Origin: Castellaniella sp.
Lineage (GTDB): Bacteria; Pseudomonadota; Gammaproteobacteria; Burkholderiales; Burkholderiaceae_B
Direction: 5' to 3'
Assembly (NCBI RefSeq): GCF_004321985.1
Contig: NZ_SCQN01000058.1
Coordinates: forward strand, 1 to 64,000
Length of the DNA: 64,000 bases
Shown here piece after piece: positions 1 to 8,295 of the stretch; positions within the stretch are counted from its first letter, which is position 1, and each line of letters starts with the position of its first letter. The translations under genes were made by a program, and so were the position numbers. Under the pieces are notes generated by a model, which was not told the DNA's origin, made no database searches, and saw only the letters and a program-made list of their open reading frames with translations.

Positions 1-665
1 TAGCGGATGGTGGCTGCATCATCGACGGAAACCTCGCCACCACACCCCGCCACGACCATGTAGGTCCACCAGTCATGGGGAATGTCCGGCGCAAACGGCT
101 GCGTCGCCGCCAGCAGCGCTCTGGCCGCCTGGTTGAAGACCATGGTGTTACCCCCCGCGACGTTCTGCGCAAGCGCGTTGGCAAAACTGACCGGACGCGA
201 AATAGGCACCGAAACGCCAATGGGCCGATCGCTCGCATCCACCAGGGTGGAGCGTGAGCAGTACAGCGCGGGCACGTCGGCCGGCACCGTCGTCAGCCAC
301 TTCAGCGCCCGCTCGAGCTTGTTGGGCTCCCAGATGTCATCCTGGTCCGAGTACGCAAAATAGTCAGCATGGATATCGGGATGAGCAGCGAGAGACATGA
401 AATTTGCGGCGTAGCCTTTGCGCGGCCCATGCCACAGTGAGACCTGCCCGGCGGGCCTGTAGGCTCTCCAAGCCTCCAGCAGAGGCAGGGTGTCATCCGT
501 GGACCCGTCATCCGATGCGTGGACCACCCACCGGCGATGCGTCTGCGCCTCGTAGGACGCCAGTTGCTCAGCCAGATAGTCCTGGCCCTGGTAAGTGCAC
601 AGAAGGATCGCAACCGACGGCGGTGTCGCGACCTTCGGGGCCAACTCCACGGTCTCGCCCCCCAT
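1..665 (-). CDS. Glycosyltransferase family 2, rhamnosyltransferase-like (partial, runs off the left edge)
   Basis: This is the N-terminal 221 codons of a GT-A fold glycosyltransferase that would transfer a nucleotide-activated sugar during surface polysaccharide assembly at the cytoplasmic face of the inner membrane. The translation starts MGGETVELAPK and shows the nucleotide-binding start ILLCTYQGQDYLAEQL, the acidic motif DDGSTDDT, and SDQDDIW, which matches the metal-binding DxD region of WfgS/rhamnosyltransferase-type GT2 enzymes. The ATG overlaps the stop of the upstream MarR gene (TGATG), so translation is probably coupled. The 3' end lies outside the window. The acceptor and donor cannot be told from the sequence. 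Confidence 0.85.
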   Translation of the reverse strand, partial: MGGETVELAPKVATPPSVAILLCTYQGQDYLAEQLASYEAQTHRRWVVHASDDGSTDDTLPLLEAWRAYRPAGQVSLWHGPRKGYAANFMSLAAHPDIHADYFAYSDQDDIWEPNKLERALKWLTTVPADVPALYCSRSTLVDASDRPIGVSVPISRPVSFANALAQNVAGGNTMVFNQAARALLAATQPFAPDIPHDWWTYMVVAGCGGEVSVDDAATIR

Positions 666-1006
666 CACGAAGCCTGAACCTCTTTTTGCAGGCGCTCGAT
701 CTCCTGGCGCAGTGTCTCGTATTCCCGCTGCTTCAACGCCAGGAAGCGGCGCGTGAGATCCGCCTTCGCCACGATCCCAGTCGGGGTCAGCAGATACGCA
801 TAGGCCAGCTTGTTGTCGCTATTCCTGAAGTTCTGCATCTTGACCAGCCCCTTGTTCAGCAAGGCACGGATGCAGTAGTTGGTCTTGCCCAAACTCACGC
901 CCAGCGCCCGCGACAGCTCGCGCTGGCTCAGGCCTGGGTCGGATTCCAGCAGGCGCAAAACCTGTAGTTGGCTTTCTTCGTGCAGAGGAGTTCGCAATTC
1001 AAACAC
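665..1006 (-). CDS. MarR-family EPS-associated transcriptional regulator
   Basis: This 113-residue protein has a winged helix (residues about 10-80; core SQRELSRALGVSLGKTNYC) and a C-terminal basic/acidic helix ending RQEIERLQKEVQAS that could form a coiled coil. Small MarR-like proteins of this type are found inside exopolysaccharide and O-antigen clusters. It lies 23 bp after the O-antigen-ligase-like gene and overlaps the glycosyltransferase that follows. The start codon is GTG with no clear Shine-Dalgarno, and it forms the last three bases of an ops element. Its role in cluster regulation is inferred from family and position; no target operator is visible. Confidence 0.8.
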   Translation of the reverse strand: MFELRTPLHEESQLQVLRLLESDPGLSQRELSRALGVSLGKTNYCIRALLNKGLVKMQNFRNSDNKLAYAYLLTPTGIVAKADLTRRFLALKQREYETLRQEIERLQKEVQAS

Positions 1007-1015
1007 GCTACCGCC
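1004..1015 (-). promoter_or_regulatory. ops element (RfaH recruitment site)
   Basis: The minus strand reads GGCGGTAGCGTG, an exact match to the ops consensus where transcribing RNA polymerase pauses and loads RfaH in enterobacteria. It lies in the 23-bp gap between the O-antigen-ligase-like gene and the MarR gene, in the direction of polysaccharide-cluster transcription, and its last three bases are the MarR GTG start. A possible -10 box (TATAAC, 1021-1026) lies just upstream without a convincing -35. An RfaH-like gene is present at 7672-8295. The match is direct; its function in this genus is inferred. Confidence 0.65.
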
Positions 1016-1029
1016 GTGCTGTTATACGG

Positions 1030-2436
1030 TCAGCAAGCGCACGAGGTATGTTCATCAAGTGAACGCAATGTTACTTCAGCGTTATTTATGACGACCGCAC
1101 CATCCGTCACAGGCTGTTTCTGCCAACGGCCAACACCCCCCGATCCGATATACGTTGTTTCACGTTCCCGTATCGCCGCCCACAACACAGCAAGCGACAC
1201 CAGAAAAAACATCACACCATTATTCCGCCCAAGGATGACTTGGGTCAGACCAAAGGTAGCAAACGAGGCCGGTAGGCTTGCGCCGCAGCAGGCCAGGACA
1301 CGTAGCAACAAGTCTGGGGATCGCAAACGGCGGGCGAAACTCCAGAAGCTTGAAATCAGCAGCGCGAGGATGGCCACCAGCCCCAAAGTACCCTGGTGCA
1401 GCCAGATCTCGAGGAAGTTGTTGTGGGTGTTGGACAGCGTATCCACAAACGGATTCACGCGTCCCACTGCGATTAGATCACGCAGATGGGCATCGTACTG
1501 TAGATGCCCCCAGCCCAGAATCGGCCTTTCAGGAATGCTCACGAAGGCAGCCTTCCAGGCCTCGAGGCGGGGACCCACGGTATTGTTGGCAACCTCGCCC
1601 AGTCGGCTATATTCCTGCCATTCTGTAAATGCCCCTGTATAACGGCTATCGGCAATCTTGCCGACCGGCAATACGGAGAAAATGATGACCAGCATGACCA
1701 GTACCGCCGCCCCACCCGCCAGCAACGGCCGCAAATGACGGCGGCGAAACAGCGCAATGCCGCCCAGCACGGCCATGACTGGCAAAGCCAGCAAGCTTCC
1801 CCGGGTGGCCGATGCGATCACCGCATACTCCCCCGCCAACCCCGACAGCAGCAACAGTACCGCCCACACCCTGCGCCCGCGGATGGCCGCCTCGGCTGCT
1901 GCCATCAGGCACCAGAAACCCATGGTGAGCGCAATGTCGCCAAAAGGGATGGCGCTGGTGACAAAACCGCTGGGACGATCCAGCGCCAGATGGCCGACCT
2001 GCCACCAGGCAATGGCCCCGGCGCCGCTTGTTCCAAGCGCCAGTGCCGCCACAATCCAGCTCAGGCGCAGGGACACGCGGCGAAGACCATACACGATGGG
2101 AATGGCGAGCAGATAACGGCTGCCCTGGTCCAGATACTTGCCCTCGTCACCATGCCACACTACCGCGGCGGCATTGACGACGAAGACGGCGAGCAGCAGC
2201 CAGCACAAGGTGCGGTCTTCGCGGGACCAGGGAGCCATCGCCGCGCCGACGCCTGCATCAGCGTGCTTCGGTCCACGGCGATCCGTTAACCAGACTGCCA
2301 GGCCGCCAAACAGCAGCAACGCCGCCCCCAGGGAATAGCCGGAAAACGCGGTCAGCATCAACAGATAGAACAGCGCCGCACTGGCAGACATCCAGGCAGA
2401 CAGCCACGCAGGCGGTGAAACGGAAGCGGAGGGCAT
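1030..2436 (-). CDS. O-antigen ligase / Wzy-like polymerase family membrane protein
   Basis: This 468-residue polytopic inner-membrane protein has about 10-12 hydrophobic segments and a large periplasmic loop in its second half (around SRYTGAFTEWQEYSRLGE to TLSNTHNNFLEIW). That layout and the short HNNFLEIW motif near the loop end fit the Wzy_C/WaaL family, which moves polymer from undecaprenyl carrier to lipid A core or polymerises repeat units. The start MPSASVSPP is chosen because the longer frame runs into manC and gives non-family sequence. It lies in the same direction as manC and the EPS regulator. Ligase and polymerase cannot be separated by sequence alone. Confidence 0.75.
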   Translation of the reverse strand: MPSASVSPPAWLSAWMSASAALFYLLMLTAFSGYSLGAALLLFGGLAVWLTDRRGPKHADAGVGAAMAPWSREDRTLCWLLLAVFVVNAAAVVWHGDEGKYLDQGSRYLLAIPIVYGLRRVSLRLSWIVAALALGTSGAGAIAWWQVGHLALDRPSGFVTSAIPFGDIALTMGFWCLMAAAEAAIRGRRVWAVLLLLSGLAGEYAVIASATRGSLLALPVMAVLGGIALFRRRHLRPLLAGGAAVLVMLVIIFSVLPVGKIADSRYTGAFTEWQEYSRLGEVANNTVGPRLEAWKAAFVSIPERPILGWGHLQYDAHLRDLIAVGRVNPFVDTLSNTHNNFLEIWLHQGTLGLVAILALLISSFWSFARRLRSPDLLLRVLACCGASLPASFATFGLTQVILGRNNGVMFFLVSLAVLWAAIRERETTYIGSGGVGRWQKQPVTDGAVVINNAEVTLRSLDEHTSCAC

Positions 2437-2531: not shown

Positions 2532-3971
2532 CTATACCCTGCCGTACAGATCTTCCAGCCGCACGATGTCGTCCTCGCCCAGATAGGTGCCCGATTGCAC
2601 TTCGATCAGCTCCAGCGGGACGGTCCCCGGGTTCTCCAGCGAATGCACTTGGCCGATCGGGATATAGGTGGACTGATTTTCGGTGACCAGATAGGTCCGG
2701 TCGCCATTGGTGACCTTCGCAGTGCCGCTGACGACCACCCAGTGTTCCGCACGGTGATGGTGCTTCTGCAGCGATAGCCGCCCCCCCGGATTGACCGTGA
2801 TTTTCTTCACCTGATAGCGCGGTCCACTGCCGATGGCGTCGAACATCCCCCACGGCCGGTACACCTGGCGGTGCCGCAGATGTTCGGTACGGCCAAGTGT
2901 CTCGAGCTGCGCGACAATGCGCTTGACGCCCTGCACTGCACCCTTGTGGGCGACCAGAACGGCATCGCTGGTTTCTGCAATGATCAGATCCTGTACGCCC
3001 ACCGCCGCGACCAGACGGCTTTCGGCATGCACGACAGTACCGTGCACAGATTCCATCAGCACGTCACCTTGCAGACAATTTCCGTCGGCATCGCAGCCCA
3101 GCTCCGCAGCGAGCGACTCCCAGGTGCCCAGGTCGTTCCACCCCGCATCCAGCAGGACCACTGCGGCATCCTGGGTATGTTCCATGACGGCATAGTCGAT
3201 GGAATCGGACGGAGACAATGCGAAGGCCTGCGCATCGGCGCGGATGAAATCCAGGTCACGCCGCGCACCCGCCCATGCGGCTCGGCAGGCGGCCAGGATC
3301 CCGGGTGCAAACCGTTCCAGTTCCTGCAGGTAGCGGCTGGCACGAAACAGGTATATGCCGCTGTTCCAGCAGTACCGACCTGAGGCCAGGAACTCAGCGG
3401 CGCGGGCGGCATCGGGCTTTTCGACGAAGCGGGACACCACCCAGCCCGTGTCCAGCACGGCGCCGCGTTCGATGTAGCCATAGCCGGTTTCGGCGCGATC
3501 GGGAGCGACGCCGAACGTGACCAGCCGGCCCCGGTCGGCCAGGACAGTCCCCTGTTCCACAGCCTGCCGAAAGGCCGCCGCATTCCGGACGAGATGGTCG
3601 GCCGGCAGCACAAGCAGCAGCGGATCATCGCCCTGATCCGTTGCGTGGAATGCCGCCAGCGCAATGGCCGGCGCCGTGTTGCGGACTGCCGATTCCAGGA
3701 TCAGGCTGGTGCCCCGGACCCCGGACTGCCGAAGCTGTTCGGCGGCCAGGAAGCGATGTGCCTCGTTGCAGATGACAGACGCCGGGCGGCACGGCAGGCC
3801 GTCCAGCCGCATCAGCGTCTGCAGCAGCAGGGATTGCGGGCCCAGCAGATTCAGGAACTGCTTGGGCCTGTGCTGACGCGACAACGGCCAAAGGCGCGTG
3901 CCTGCTCCCCCCGCCAGGATCACCGGTTGCAAAGTTCGCAATTCGGACGGGCCAGCGTCATTCCGTGACAT
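2532..3971 (-). CDS. manC: Mannose-1-phosphate guanylyltransferase / mannose-6-phosphate isomerase
   Basis: This bifunctional cytosolic enzyme makes GDP-mannose, the precursor for mannose, fucose, rhamnose or perosamine units of surface polysaccharide. The 479-residue product has the nucleotidyltransferase signature GGAGTRLWPLSR near residue 20 followed by PKQF, the FVEKPD motif in the middle, and a C-terminal type II isomerase cupin (RPWGMFD, then QKHHHRAEHW). The length matches AlgA/ManC/CpsB proteins. The ATG at 3971 is preferred over an in-frame TTG nine bases upstream; neither has a strong Shine-Dalgarno. It heads the polysaccharide genes in this window. Confidence 0.93.
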   Translation of the reverse strand: MSRNDAGPSELRTLQPVILAGGAGTRLWPLSRQHRPKQFLNLLGPQSLLLQTLMRLDGLPCRPASVICNEAHRFLAAEQLRQSGVRGTSLILESAVRNTAPAIALAAFHATDQGDDPLLLVLPADHLVRNAAAFRQAVEQGTVLADRGRLVTFGVAPDRAETGYGYIERGAVLDTGWVVSRFVEKPDAARAAEFLASGRYCWNSGIYLFRASRYLQELERFAPGILAACRAAWAGARRDLDFIRADAQAFALSPSDSIDYAVMEHTQDAAVVLLDAGWNDLGTWESLAAELGCDADGNCLQGDVLMESVHGTVVHAESRLVAAVGVQDLIIAETSDAVLVAHKGAVQGVKRIVAQLETLGRTEHLRHRQVYRPWGMFDAIGSGPRYQVKKITVNPGGRLSLQKHHHRAEHWVVVSGTAKVTNGDRTYLVTENQSTYIPIGQVHSLENPGTVPLELIEVQSGTYLGEDDIVRLEDLYGRV

Positions 3972-3992
3972 GATCAACAATCAGTGCGATGT

Positions 3993-4157
3993 TCATGGTT
4001 CGGCCGGATCGCGCGGAAACCCGGCTTCTCGCTGCGCTCGCACAGCAAGTACGAAGGCGATGTCGAGTTCCGGGACATAACGAGTATGCCTTGCCAGATG
4101 ATCGATGATTCGATCGAAATCTTCGACGATCTTGGGCGCCAGTTCAATGCGCGCCAC
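3993..4157 (-). pseudogene. ParE/RelE-family toxin remnant with internal deletion
   Basis: The frame starts at a GTG two bases after the antitoxin stop and reads VARIELAPKIVEDFDRI, the typical N-terminus of this ParE subfamily, then passes at about residue 21 directly into the family's C-terminal part (PELDIAFVLAVRAQREAGF). About 40 residues of the core beta-sheet, present in full-length toxins of roughly 95 residues, are missing without loss of frame, leaving 54 residues. The protein is very probably inactive as a ribonuclease or gyrase poison. A novel minitoxin is possible but unlikely. Confidence 0.65.
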
Positions 4158-4159
4158 GA

Positions 4160-4444
4160 CTACTTCGCCAACCGGCGTGGCGTCGGTGGTACAGCAGTCC
4201 GTCCGCCCATACTGCTTTCCAAGTATGCACGCATGTCGGCCCAAGACAGGGCCAGGCCCGATTCGACGATGCGCGCGTAACGCGCTTCAGCCCCTGCTTC
4301 AAAATCAGCCTGACGCTCGGCCGCGCGCGTCTTCTGCTCGATGGCCTCAAGAATGAAATGATGCGCCGTGACACCGGACTTCCTGGCAGCAGTCGCAACC
4401 CGCGTTTTCAGGTCTTCGGATAGGGGGATGGTGGTGGTGCTCAT
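4160..4444 (-). CDS. Ribbon-helix-helix antitoxin (CopG/Arc-like)
   Basis: The 94-residue protein begins MSTTTIPLSEDLKTRV, a beta-strand plus helix pattern of ribbon-helix-helix DNA-binding proteins, and continues with helices and a polar C-terminal tail that would bind the cognate toxin. It sits two bases upstream of the deleted ParE-type toxin frame, in the order antitoxin then toxin. The antitoxin looks intact although its toxin is not, so it may persist as an autorepressor or as an anti-addiction remnant. Family assignment rests on pattern and context. Confidence 0.7.
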   Translation of the reverse strand: MSTTTIPLSEDLKTRVATAARKSGVTAHHFILEAIEQKTRAAERQADFEAGAEARYARIVESGLALSWADMRAYLESSMGGRTAVPPTPRRLAK

Positions 4445-4653: not shown

Positions 4654-4923
4654 ATGTCGAAACGACAGAAGTTATTGGAACGCTTTCTCAAGACACCGCC
4701 CCCTTTGGACCTCCGGTTCGACGAGCTGGATACCTTGCTCCGTAGTTTTGGGTTTCGGATGCACGAGAACTCTGGAGGTTCTTCTCACAAATTGTTCGTA
4801 CGGACTGAAGCCGACGGACGTGAGCACAGAATCGTTTGCAGCAGGCCGCATCCAGGCGGTGTCCTGAAGGCGTATCAGATCCGGGAAATCAGGGACCGGC
4901 TGATTCAATGGGGATTCTTATGA
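4654..4923 (+). CDS. hicA: HicA-like type II toxin (mRNA interferase)
   Basis: The 89-residue protein has a double-stranded-RNA-binding-like fold pattern. It contains the conserved glycine and histidine stretch ENSGGSSHKLFV that carries the catalytic histidine of HicA RNases, and ends in YQIREIRDRLIQWGF, the family's terminal helix. It would cleave mRNA when its antitoxin is lost. The downstream hicB start overlaps its stop by four bases (ATGA), the usual arrangement for this type. It is divergent from the neighbouring ParE-remnant locus, and an inverted repeat lies just upstream. Confidence 0.8.
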   Translation: MSKRQKLLERFLKTPPPLDLRFDELDTLLRSFGFRMHENSGGSSHKLFVRTEADGREHRIVCSRPHPGGVLKAYQIREIRDRLIQWGFL

Positions 4924-5255
4924 GCAACGTGCTGGAATACCGCGGCTATCTCGGATCAGTGGAATTCAGTGTCGAAGATCAATGTCTATGTGGCAAGGTG
5001 GAATTTATCGATGATCTGATTCTGTTCGATGGAACTTCGGTCACAGAGGTCGAACAGGCCTTTCGGAACGCTGTGGACGCCTACCTGGTGTCATGTGCCG
5101 AGCGTGGCGTGACACCCGATCAGCCCTTCAAAGGCAGTTTCAATGTGCGGATTGGCGGTGACCTGCATCGGCAGGCTGCCTACGAGGCCAAACGCCGTGG
5201 TGTGGCGCTGAACGAATTCGTGCTGCAGGCCATCAAAAGCGAGCTGCACGCGTAA
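4920..5255 (+). CDS. hicB: HicB-like antitoxin
   Basis: The 111-residue protein has two parts. The N-terminal half is a partial RNase H-like domain (GYLGSVEFSVEDQCLCGKV to FRNAVDAYL), which masks HicA. The C-terminal ribbon-helix-helix segment (FNVRIGGDLHRQAAYEAKRR) is for DNA binding and self-repression. The ATG at 4920 overlaps the hicA stop; an in-frame ATG at 4908 is the alternative. The pair looks complete and could be active. Confidence 0.83.
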   Translation: MSNVLEYRGYLGSVEFSVEDQCLCGKVEFIDDLILFDGTSVTEVEQAFRNAVDAYLVSCAERGVTPDQPFKGSFNVRIGGDLHRQAAYEAKRRGVALNEFVLQAIKSELHA

Positions 5256-5300: not shown

Positions 5301-7454
5301 TCAGATCGCGATACTCACGCCCAGCCACACGCCATGCTGACGCTGTTGAGCACCATACTGGCCCGTATAAGCAAGCTTCAGCCGCGCATGACGCGTGACA
5401 GGTGCATGGACGCCAATGTCCAACCGCAGCGAGTGGCGCGCCAACGGCGGGCTTGCCACGTCGAACCAACGGTCAGGATCGGCGTTGTAGGCCTGACGGC
5501 TGTTCAGGCTCCGATTCCCCCAATGGCTCTGCACCCCCACATCCGCAGCCAAAACAGCAGGGCCGTGCTCCGTTGACCATTGCCGCTGGATCTGCACACC
5601 CAGATGGCTGACCCAACGCTGATCAGTCTGGGGTGACAGCGAGACCGCGGCCAGGCTACCCGATTCCTGCAAACCGGGCCGGTGCAGGCGCAGCCACGCC
5701 AGGCGGGTGTAGGGCGTGACCCCCCAGTCCCGCATGGCCAGTGGCAGGTCCGGACGCAGGTCGATCCATGCCTGTGTCAATTGTGCCTGGGAACGGGTGC
5801 GCAGATCCGCCTCGGCGGGATCAGCCTGCCGGTGCAGCTGCGCATGATGCCAGGCATGGGCAGCGCCAACCGTCAGACGCAGCCCGCGCCAGCCGTGGCT
5901 GGAACCCAGGCCGACGTGGGTAGCGGTATCTCTGGCCCCATGGCGAGCGGCGGTCGAGTCGTATTGGCTGGAAAGGTCCGTGGTCTGGGCACCGGCAAAG
6001 GCGGACAGGAACCAGTCGGCGGAAGAACCCATCCGATGGCTGATCCCGATCTGCAGACCGGCGGTGTCCCGATCATCGCTCGGCCATCCATCCGCCGCCG
6101 GACGCTCGGCATTCGCAGCCCAGGTCTGCGCCCACGCGCGGCCGCTGGCAGCATGCGCCAGCGCCGATTCGCGGACGAACCGGCTGTCCTCGATCAACGC
6201 GCTGCGCCAGGCGCCATCGACGGTATTCAGGCCGCGCGAGTTGAACCGAAGACCCAGCAGGACCCGAGTCGGTTCGTAGGTGAGCACAGGATCGAGATAA
6301 CGGATCGTGCTGGCGGCCGTGGCGAACCGGCTGCCGGCGAGTGCCGACATACCGATCGAATCCGGCACTACCGCGGCCGACGCATCCGGCGCCATCATGG
6401 CGAACGCCGACGCGTCGGCTGGCCCGAAGCCTGCGTCCGCCTGTGCAATCACCCAGCGGGTTTGCGGAGTCCACGCGCCGGGTGTGGGCTCGACCCGCAG
6501 GTCGCCCGCCAACTGCATGGTGTCCCAGGTCTGCAGCGCATCGGCGCCGCCGGTGGCATCGATACGGATACGCGTCTGCGCGGTGGGCGCCAGACGCAGG
6601 CCCTGGTCGAACATCAGGGTGCCCACCGCATCCGGGCTGCCCGGCTGTAAGTGACCGGCGACCTGTGCCTCATGAATATAGCCATTCCCGGACAGCACGG
6701 TGCCCGACTCAGTATGGATAGGACCGCGCAACCACAGGCCGTCCACGCGCAGGCCGCCGCCGAGCACAACCAGCGGATCGCCATTGGCGCTCTGGTTGAA
6801 TTCAGTCAACCGCAGGGTCCCCGCGCCGTCTTTCACGATAGGCGCCGTGGCATCGATGTGCCCGGCCAGCGTCGCCTCGCCCGCCGCGACGCGCCAGGTC
6901 ACAGGTTCCTCGCTGTGCGCCGCCGTGAGCGTCCATCTGCTGTCCAGCAGGTCGACAGGATCGTCACGGCGTACACGCAACGACTGCGCCAGCCGCACGC
7001 CGTCTGCCAGTTCCAGCCGGGTACCCGCAACCAGGGTCAGCGTATTCGTATCGGCACCCAGCGCACCGTCTGCCGCCACCCCCAGGCTGCCGCGCAGCAG
7101 CAGTGTCCCACCCCCGCGGCTGCTGTCCGCATGCAGGGCCAGGTGGCCTTCCCCGAGCTTGAAGAGCGAGCGGGTCGCATCAGGGTCGTGGGGGTTGACC
7201 GGACCGGTGATATCGCTGTCGACGGCGCCCATCAGCGTGAGTGTGCGCCCTGCCGCCACGTCCAGTGCGCTGTGGTCCGCCAGAATGACGCGGCCGACCA
7301 CCTGCCGGTCTTCATCGATCACGACCTGTTCACCGTGCAAAACAAAAGGCGCCGGGGAAGCCTCCCACGGCGCCTGCATTGCCATTGCCATTGCCCCGCT
7401 GGGCGGCGGCAGTCCCACACAAAAACAAGCGAGTGCAGCATGCATCAATTTCAT
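5301..7454 (-). CDS. Autotransporter (type Va secretion) outer-membrane protein
   Basis: The 717-residue protein begins with a signal peptide (MKLMHAALACFCVGL, cleavage near residues 24-25) after a good Shine-Dalgarno (AGGAGA). The passenger, about residues 26-430, has pertactin-type beta-helix features, including the autotransporter-associated strand pattern GAGTLRLTEFNQ and the GTLMFDQGL region. The last roughly 280 residues form a beta-barrel that would translocate the passenger across the outer membrane. No protease triad or RGD motif was seen. The protein ends in IAI instead of the usual terminal aromatic residue, which could affect BAM recognition. It is a single-gene unit; the passenger function is unknown. 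Confidence 0.82.
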   Translation of the reverse strand: MKLMHAALACFCVGLPPPSGAMAMAMQAPWEASPAPFVLHGEQVVIDEDRQVVGRVILADHSALDVAAGRTLTLMGAVDSDITGPVNPHDPDATRSLFKLGEGHLALHADSSRGGGTLLLRGSLGVAADGALGADTNTLTLVAGTRLELADGVRLAQSLRVRRDDPVDLLDSRWTLTAAHSEEPVTWRVAAGEATLAGHIDATAPIVKDGAGTLRLTEFNQSANGDPLVVLGGGLRVDGLWLRGPIHTESGTVLSGNGYIHEAQVAGHLQPGSPDAVGTLMFDQGLRLAPTAQTRIRIDATGGADALQTWDTMQLAGDLRVEPTPGAWTPQTRWVIAQADAGFGPADASAFAMMAPDASAAVVPDSIGMSALAGSRFATAASTIRYLDPVLTYEPTRVLLGLRFNSRGLNTVDGAWRSALIEDSRFVRESALAHAASGRAWAQTWAANAERPAADGWPSDDRDTAGLQIGISHRMGSSADWFLSAFAGAQTTDLSSQYDSTAARHGARDTATHVGLGSSHGWRGLRLTVGAAHAWHHAQLHRQADPAEADLRTRSQAQLTQAWIDLRPDLPLAMRDWGVTPYTRLAWLRLHRPGLQESGSLAAVSLSPQTDQRWVSHLGVQIQRQWSTEHGPAVLAADVGVQSHWGNRSLNSRQAYNADPDRWFDVASPPLARHSLRLDIGVHAPVTRHARLKLAYTGQYGAQQRQHGVWLGVSIAI

Positions 7455-7671
7455 GTTGTCTCCTGTTTGGTATGTCGTCGTCACTGACTGTGACAAAACG
7501 AACCATACGGGAAGACACTGAACGCAATCCGTGTAAAAAACGGCACGATCACGCATTGATCACGCTGTGAATACTTGTGAAGATGCTGTAAATTGTTGCG
7601 TTCTCGAAATCTGCGCGGGCCACCTGCCAAGCCGGCCGAAGGCTAAGCATTCCAATCGTTCAACCCGCGCC

Positions 7672-8295
7672 TCACAGCGGCGCGATCCGCCCGAACTCCA
7701 CCTGCACGGACTGCGGCCGGCCCAGGATCTCCAGCAGCAGCGTGACACGATCCTTGGACACCGATTGCACCAGCGCCTGGAGGCCGGCGAGCGCCGGATC
7801 CAGCAGCCGCACGGCCATGCCAGGCTCGTACGGACTGATGCTGTCCAACGACGCCGTCTCACGCAGGGATTCGGCCTTGCGGATGCTGTGGATGGCCTCG
7901 TCGGCCAGCGTGGCCGGATGCTGACCGAACATGACCAGACGGCTCACTCCCACCGTGGAGCGCACCACCGACAGCGACTGCGTGCTACGCGTGGGGCGCA
8001 AAAACAGGTAGCGGGGAAACATGGGCTCGTGGATGACGGCGGCTCCGGCTGCCGCCAGTGCGGTCGAGCGTTCAACGCCAGCGGCAGAGACTTTGGCCAC
8101 GCCACCTGCCGCCGCCCTTCGTCCCGGTTTCCTGAACACCCGGAACAGGGGCAGATAGACTTCGAAGTCCTGGCGCTGGAGCTGCTGCAGCGCGACGTGT
8201 TCCTGTCGCGGCTTGGTGTGGGCGACATACCAGGCCGCAGCCGCCGTCGTAGACGGCGTGCAGGTCTGATCGCTGGGCGAAGCCGTGGAAGTCAT
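7672..8295 (-). CDS. rfaH: RfaH-like NusG paralog, transcription antiterminator
   Basis: This 207-residue protein starts its NGN domain with AWYVAHTKPRQEHVAL and continues with FEVYLPLF and EPMFPRYLFLRP, the strands that contact the beta-prime clamp helices. A glycine/alanine-rich insertion of about 45 residues separates these strands, longer than in typical RfaH or NusG. The C-terminal segment (GMAVRLLDPALAGLQALV onward) fits the KOW domain. True NusG is expected next to secE and the rplK operon, so this stand-alone copy is a specialised paralog. RfaH loads at ops sites to suppress Rho termination in polysaccharide operons, and an exact ops site lies at 1004-1015. Confidence 0.85.
   Translation of the reverse strand: MTSTASPSDQTCTPSTTAAAAWYVAHTKPRQEHVALQQLQRQDFEVYLPLFRVFRKPGRRAAAGGVAKVSAAGVERSTALAAAGAAVIHEPMFPRYLFLRPTRSTQSLSVVRSTVGVSRLVMFGQHPATLADEAIHSIRKAESLRETASLDSISPYEPGMAVRLLDPALAGLQALVQSVSKDRVTLLLEILGRPQSVQVEFGRIAPL

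Follow-up and report, generated by a model that had tools for sequence, protein, structure and literature searches.

Does the exact ops element at the start of a MarR-type regulator gene in a Castellaniella polysaccharide cluster serve as a loading site for an RfaH-type factor, or do its twelve letters merely resemble one? The window, which is the whole 64,000-nucleotide stretch of DNA analysed here, had been described in a sequence-only reading as carrying all 12 bases of the ops consensus on the minus strand, in the correct direction and within a polysaccharide cluster. This was confirmed. GGCGGTAGCGTG is the sole exact match in the window and lies on the non-template strand, sense to the MarR_EPS and glycosyltransferase genes that follow it. 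The explanation that best accounts for the locus, and in which we place considerable confidence, is a two-step leader at the head of an exopolysaccharide (EPS) operon, where repression would be followed by RfaH-type loading.

Organization of the locus

The features of the locus are collected in Table 1. Along the transcribed strand, a -10-like box is followed by a palindrome, a hairpin, one base, ops, the MarR_EPS gene, the glycosyltransferase gene and the contig end. Since the contig ends inside the second gene, further operon content can be inferred only from relatives. The earlier description of the ops element as placed in mid-cluster is misleading: a -10-like box and a palindrome of its own accompany the site, which probably opens a transcription unit. 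The preceding wzy reading frame stops inside the hairpin, so that read-through from upstream would cross the candidate operator.

Table 1. Coordinates of the leader parts and neighboring genes in the window
Feature	Position	Strand	Remarks
ops element GGCGGTAGCGTG	1004-1015	-	exact 12-base match; G1 at 1015, G12 at 1004
-10-like box TAACAT	1068-1073	-	just 5' of the palindrome; weak, 4 of 6 bases matching TATAAT
Palindrome GTTCACTTGATGAAC	1050-1064	-	GTTCA-N5-TGAAC; candidate MarR_EPS operator
Hairpin	1017-1035	-	TGCTG (1035-1031), 9-nt loop (1030-1022), CAGCA (1021-1017); 5 bp; one base (1016), then ops
MarR_EPS gene	665-1006	-	TIGR04176 155.3 bits, above the cut-off of 88; start codon uncertain
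Family 2 glycosyltransferase	3-665	-	overlap with the MarR stop; truncated by the contig end at window position 1
O-antigen ligase/polymerase (Wzy_C)	1030-2436	-	ORF crosses the palindrome and ends in the hairpin
Mannose-1-phosphate guanylyltransferase/mannose-6-phosphate isomerase (manC)	2532-3974	-	TIGR01479 675 bits
Small gene pair between manC and the autotransporter-like ORF	3993-4444	-	RelB-type antitoxin match, weak at 17.2 bits (cut-off 50), plus a small partner ORF
Small gene pair between manC and the autotransporter-like ORF	4654-5255	+	HicAB-like by eye
Autotransporter-like ORF	5301-7556	-	adjoins the rfaH-like gene; start codon uncertain
RfaH-like NusG paralogue	7672-8295	-	presumed trans-acting partner; TIGR01955 105.1 bits, cut-off 144.5

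The NusG-like gene lies 6.7 kb upstream of ops, followed further out by a permease-like ORF. The autotransporter-like ORF resembles, in sequence and in place, a gene of a related locus (L151) that is an autotransporter by Pfam. Much of this arrangement is retained in sister species, where Pfam was run on chosen ORFs and the remaining names were given by sequence likeness. Sister G009 retains the permease-like ORF, the rfaH-like gene, the autotransporter, wzy, the leader and EPS genes; G002 retains the rfaH-like gene, autotransporter, wzy and leader; and G004 the rfaH-like gene, autotransporter and leader. The arrangement in G006 is more divergent, and EPS gene content varies among the sisters.

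Rarity and conservation of the ops element

The sequence-only reading had expected an exact 12-mer less than once in 100 windows of this size, which overstates its rarity. A scan of the whole 3.41 Mb genome found three exact matches, or approximately 0.06 per 64-kb window, and a reversed control pattern was also found three times. With up to two mismatches allowed, the window contains 14 ops-like sites against 16.2 expected and thus no excess. The other two exact copies in the genome are antisense within ORFs that look like amidohydrolase and error-prone DNA polymerase genes. As a result, the proposed check by a genome-wide search for the 12-mer, once run, mimics a refutation with two unrelated matches out of three; the specific signal is the whole leader. 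Because the genomic copies equal those of the control, the bare 12-mer is too common to support the claim. It is weak evidence, and the surrounding leader carries the case, the stronger evidence coming from the palindrome and hairpin, which the sequence-only reading had left unmentioned.

The second proposed check, conservation in relatives, spoke for the ops element: the site is kept together with the hairpin and palindrome. Across 61 genomes, TIGR04176 scored above its cut-off in 17 (19 genes), and 11 of these 19 MarR_EPS genes have an ops core 32–74 nt before the HMM match. A contig profile scan for MarR_EPS then supplied the best 80 of 558 loci as a named set. Within these best 80, ops cores (GCGGTAGNNTG) were found in 28 leaders (22.4 kb) compared to 18 per 2.49 Mb of flanking strands, the palindrome was found upstream at 62 loci compared to 21 per 1.24 Mb of flank, and the two occurred together at 22. 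When 94 distinct loci were analysed, with five duplicates dropped, 39 had an ops core (one as a T6C variant) and 75 had the palindrome. The core pattern fixes most of the ops bases, hence the conservation of those bases is not independent evidence. An exact 35-nt leader pattern was too strict, being found in only 4 of 399 genomes of the order with the window's own included.

A chance match would be consistent with the equal counts of exact copies and reversed controls, but the flank rate predicts only about 0.16 ops cores where 28 were observed in the best 80 of 558 leaders, and the site is conserved along with its hairpin and palindrome. Conservation in relatives refutes chance, which we regard as extremely improbable.

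At the 75 palindrome loci, a loose -10-like box is located two bases before the palindrome (loci sharing the base: -11 T, 45; -10 G, 36; -8 T, 43; -7 A, 35; -3 T, 43), tending in relatives to TGnTATAnT. From this spacing, the palindrome is likely to sit over the transcription start, as the site of an autorepressor would.

The hairpin and its likeness to JUMPstart

A 5-bp stem located one base before ops is supported by covariation. Among 42 distinct leaders, changes on both sides of the stem were counted in 29 cells, compared to 11.1 ± 2.8 in shuffled controls. The stem cells were paired in 74.9% of cases versus 24–47% with the partner slid, a comparison that favors the stem in that it was proposed from the same sequences, and in which related leaders are not independent. 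When the leaders were scored singly, a strong adjacent stem was present in 20 of 39 compared to 13% of shuffles, and the exact arrangement of 5 bp, 9-nt loop and 1-nt gap was present in 18 of 39. RNAalifold did not predict the stem from a MAFFT alignment of the leaders, returning two pairs only, both inside ops, and the window leader folded alone was no better than shuffles (z = -1.1).

The closest known element is the E. coli JUMPstart (RF01707) between galF and rfbB, which, as at the window site, is the leader of a polysaccharide operon. There, a 5-bp stem with a 9-nt loop is followed by one base and GGCGGUAGCGUG, a geometry identical to that of the window leader, while the sequences of stem and loop differ. 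The Rfam model scored the E. coli control at 61.1 bits and the window leader at 17.6 bits, below the gathering score of 35; none of 20 related loci reached this threshold. Since the RF01707 alignment to the window leader skips 20 middle positions, stem included, and the E. coli structure line shows the same 5/9/1 spacing, the two share a geometry with another sequence. The taxa listed for RF01707 in PMC2864571 are gammaproteobacteria. Judged by its geometry, the window leader is a putative JUMPstart variant below the Rfam threshold. The predicted pause base is 12 nt downstream of the end of the hairpin, which may therefore be of the stabilizing pause type, constant in geometry but drifting in sequence.

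Overlap with the MarR start codon

The sequence-only reading had also observed that the GTG start of the MarR gene is part of ops. The last three ops bases are indeed the GTG of the 665-1006 ORF, and an in-frame TTG three codons later is the other start candidate. No particular coupling of ops to the start codon of MarR was supported, since the placement is not conserved over the 39 leaders, among the 94 loci, that have an ops core upstream of MarR. The NTG of ops is in the MarR frame in 18 of these 39, where 13 would be expected (binomial p = 0.066); the frame is also open in 15, and 11 have a usable ATG, GTG or TTG. In 25, an in-frame ATG lies after ops and ahead of the conserved MarR region. 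Start-codon coupling as a general feature was rejected from these frame counts, and the overlap looks incidental, as one of many placements.

If ops acted mainly in translation, with RfaH loading bringing the ribosome to the MarR start codon, the slight excess of in-frame leaders would fit, as would the absence of a good Shine-Dalgarno sequence by eye in the window and the in-frame GTG in both the window and L028, which is among its nearest relatives on the MarR tree. The small number of usable starts, the frequent downstream ATG and the occurrence of the leader before genes other than marR make this very improbable.

Co-occurrence of ops with an RfaH-like paralogue

Among 92 genomes with MarR_EPS, 47 encode an RfaH-like NusG paralogue, and 35 of these have an ops core within 700 nt upstream of MarR, compared to 1 of the 45 without a paralogue (both present in 35, the paralogue alone in 12, ops alone in 1 and neither in 44; Fisher p = 5e-14). 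Each genome entered once, including two that carry a pair of MarR genes, and a few loci had less than 700 nt of upstream sequence. The first paralogue search covered 49 of 75 non-duplicate named loci, picked with the ops positions already known, and the first 66 genomes gave counts of 31, 5, 1 and 29 in the same order; adding the remaining 26 loci moved the agreement among paralogue-positive genomes from 31 of 36 to 35 of 47. Paralogues scored at least 66.8 bits and the remaining matches, assumed to be housekeeping NusG, at most 63.7 bits, a narrow gap in which the lowest paralogue scores are matches split by an insert. NusG itself was not found in 10 of the 45 paralogue-negative genomes, making their negative state less sure; with these dropped, Fisher p is 8e-12. 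A one-sided stratified exact test over the five families having both states, hand-assigned from record names and group codes, gave p = 1.8e-7 (36 of the 66 genomes) and 9e-8 (41 of the 92). A tree-based test on independent pairs yielded only one to two pairs on supported branches, the tree being too poorly resolved.

Five of the 12 paralogue-only genomes have an ops core elsewhere: in two sister species, palindrome plus ops precede an acetyltransferase-like gene 2.7 kb upstream of MarR, and three have ops 58–83 nt after rfaH. One further miss carries only the GGCGGCAGCGTG variant, and 6 of the 47 paralogue-positive genomes have no ops core in the available stretch. The GGCGGCAGCGTG variant at L087:9960 (G462) is altered at T6, the base that reportedly flips into RfaH, and the paralogue there retains R73. 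The single ops-positive genome in which no paralogue was found is a MAG (G446). At 23 named loci, the paralogue lies in the flank, with ops 53–365 nt away in 15; in three of these 15, the gene is on the opposite strand. In short, the counts suggest that the palindrome follows MarR (75 of 94 loci) and the ops part follows the RfaH-like gene.

Leaders elsewhere in the genomes

A covariance model (R1) was built from the 42 leaders and run on 32 genomes, with 150 first-look candidates scored per genome. The window leader, part of the training set, scored 44.9 bits. R1 identified 23 places with at least 30 bits, nine of them outside the training set; the next best scored 25.7. No such place was found in the 14 genomes without a found paralogue, while at least one was present in 14 of 17 with a paralogue. 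The three exceptions are G011, G022 and G461, the last with a known leader at 22.9 bits. A strong place was found in G008, a 78% complete MAG in which neither NusG nor the paralogue was found.

Of the nine places outside the training set, those in G004 and G418 head EPS operons with MarR, and three are parts of leader tandems or doublets preceding a MarR unit (one in G006:C9, two in G007:C103). In G007, three palindrome-hairpin-ops leaders are spaced approximately 2.05–2.08 kb apart (L201:5294-9489); two precede the same three ORFs and the last precedes MarR_EPS. Other places occur where no MarR was seen. Those at G005:C20 and G008:C67 precede polyketide synthase genes, and that at G003:C24 lies ahead of a cluster encoding a Wzx-type flippase and a CDP-glycerol phosphotransferase domain. 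At the polyketide synthase genes of the two sister species, the hairpin-ops leader lacks the palindrome (L198:1-6113 and L197:1-1444, both on the minus strand). The window's own genome has a second leader, at G000:C47 (L196:2031-2077, plus strand), where palindrome and hairpin are intact and ops is damaged (TATGGTAGCGTG). It precedes glycosyltransferase, sugar transferase and acyltransferase genes, and by eye the first codons after it resemble a MarR start. A weak R1 match in G022 (C17:7165-7216, plus strand; 20.1 bits) starts 142 nt after an RfaH-like gene (6538-7023); this genome has no MarR_EPS match, and comparable weak scores occur in paralogue-less genomes too.

From the paralogue co-occurrence and the recovery of the leader at MarR-less clusters, the window site very probably functions in RfaH-type loading at the head of an EPS operon. 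One could instead suppose that the conserved block serves another factor, such as MarR or an RNA-binding protein, and that the likeness to ops is secondary. The frequent adjacency of palindrome and ops in the best 80 of 558 loci and the scores below the RF01707 threshold would agree with this. It is nevertheless very improbable, as ops is absent from 44 of the 45 MarR_EPS genomes without a paralogue and so follows the paralogue rather than MarR, as the leader stands before polyketide synthase genes without palindrome or visible MarR, and as its geometry is that of JUMPstart.

The presumed RfaH-like partner protein

The trans-acting partner had been named RfaH. What stands is that an RfaH-like paralogue is encoded here and that ops tracks such paralogues; the name itself does not, as the protein falls below the TIGR01955 equivalog cut-off and lacks R73. 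Mapped onto E. coli RfaH with MAFFT, the window protein retains K10, R23, Q24, E48, F56 and R138, is substituted at R16 (V), H20 (Q), R73 (V) and F130 (V), and carries an insert of approximately 26 residues. In E. coli RfaH, E48, F130 and R138 are interdomain residues of autoinhibition, and K10, H20, R23, Q24 and R73 are counted as ops-contacting. In 37 aligned paralogues, the window's included, K10, F56, T72, G74, V75 and R138 are present in all, Q24 in 36, E48 in 33, R73 in only nine (K in six) and H20 in three. K10, H20, R23 and R73 of E. coli RfaH are reported to contact ops directly, and R16, H20 and R73 to be important for ops binding (PMC5995543). One AlphaFold2 prediction (pLDDT = 83, pTM = 0.62) presented an NGN domain and a β-barrel KOW domain rather than the autoinhibited helical hairpin, and a Foldseek search with this model matched NusG and RfaH (8phk, E = 5.9e-10). 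Given the residue changes, the insert and the modeled β-barrel KOW, the protein is best labeled RfaH-like, not RfaH.

These changes raise the possibility that the leader is real and the diverged partner uses other contacts or no longer reads ops, leaving only a pause. R73V, H20Q and the insert point this way, as does the damaged ops of the second leader in the same genome. Against this, the 12-mer in the window is intact, and R73 is an arginine in only nine of 37 paralogues, yet most of these genomes have ops. We consider this unlikely; it overlaps with the two-step explanation, and the likelihoods assigned to the readings do not sum to one. With the use of ops persisting where R73 and H20 are mostly replaced, its read-out would allow more flexibility than is apparent from the E. 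coli structure.

Proposed mechanism and scope

The two-step reading draws on the observed architecture, hairpin covariation, JUMPstart geometry, paralogue co-occurrence and presence of the leader at other long clusters; from these we infer repression by MarR, pausing and recruitment of the RfaH-like protein. The operon would comprise marR, the glycosyltransferase and further genes beyond the contig end. At initiation, MarR_EPS would bind the palindrome over the likely start and repress its own operon. At elongation, RNA polymerase would make a leader of approximately 50 nt, with the hairpin forming just upstream of ops. The polymerase would then pause at ops and the RfaH-like protein would load on the non-template ops strand, staying on the polymerase so that a long operon is not cut short.

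Leaders of this kind, with a predicted repressor site, small hairpin and RfaH-type loading site, head surface-sugar operons in many beta- and gammaproteobacteria. A broader proposal is made tentatively, at slightly less than an even chance: that a portable cassette with two checkpoints, a MarR_EPS operator and then a pause hairpin with ops, runs surface-polysaccharide operons across the beta- and gammaproteobacteria, that its second half also serves polyketide operons, and that ops is read by a locally encoded RfaH-type factor.

A 2020 survey describes E. coli RfaH, in one of its passages, as the only member with a recruitment mode known in detail (PMC7593976). With this leader, a candidate recruitment site for RfaH-like proteins can be named at the level of sequence in other orders, and it is tied to a regulator family, MarR_EPS. 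A literature search by family name, covering few subscription papers, returned isolated mentions of MarR_EPS and no dedicated paper; a search of the same coverage found no title or opening abstract combining ops with MarR_EPS, and a text search of PMC7593976 and PMC13015549 did not find the word "MarR". The natural variants of the hairpin and of the ops-reading residues provide material for testing ops read-out, and the leader makes testable predictions of targets, polyketide synthase genes among them.

Comparison with known systems

As a leader, the window site differs from JUMPstart in adjoining a MarR_EPS palindrome. As a protein, the best named relative of the window partner is E. coli RfaH, with which it has the NGN and KOW domains in common; the gene for the window protein, unlike that of E. 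coli RfaH, borders the cluster it presumably targets. Among the RfaH clusters of Wang et al. 2020, the passages on CL2–CL8 describe neighbors that are envelope and EPS genes, as here, and for CL4 an association with an HTH regulator is given, at the COG level only (PMC7593976). The passages on CL4 give no operator, hairpin or ops (PMC7593976). UpxY and TaA are NusG paralogues encoded inside their own operons, much as the window partner lies together with the cluster on which it presumably acts; that account describes the way they are recruited as unknown (PMC7593976), whereas at the window locus the recruitment site would be an ops-type element.
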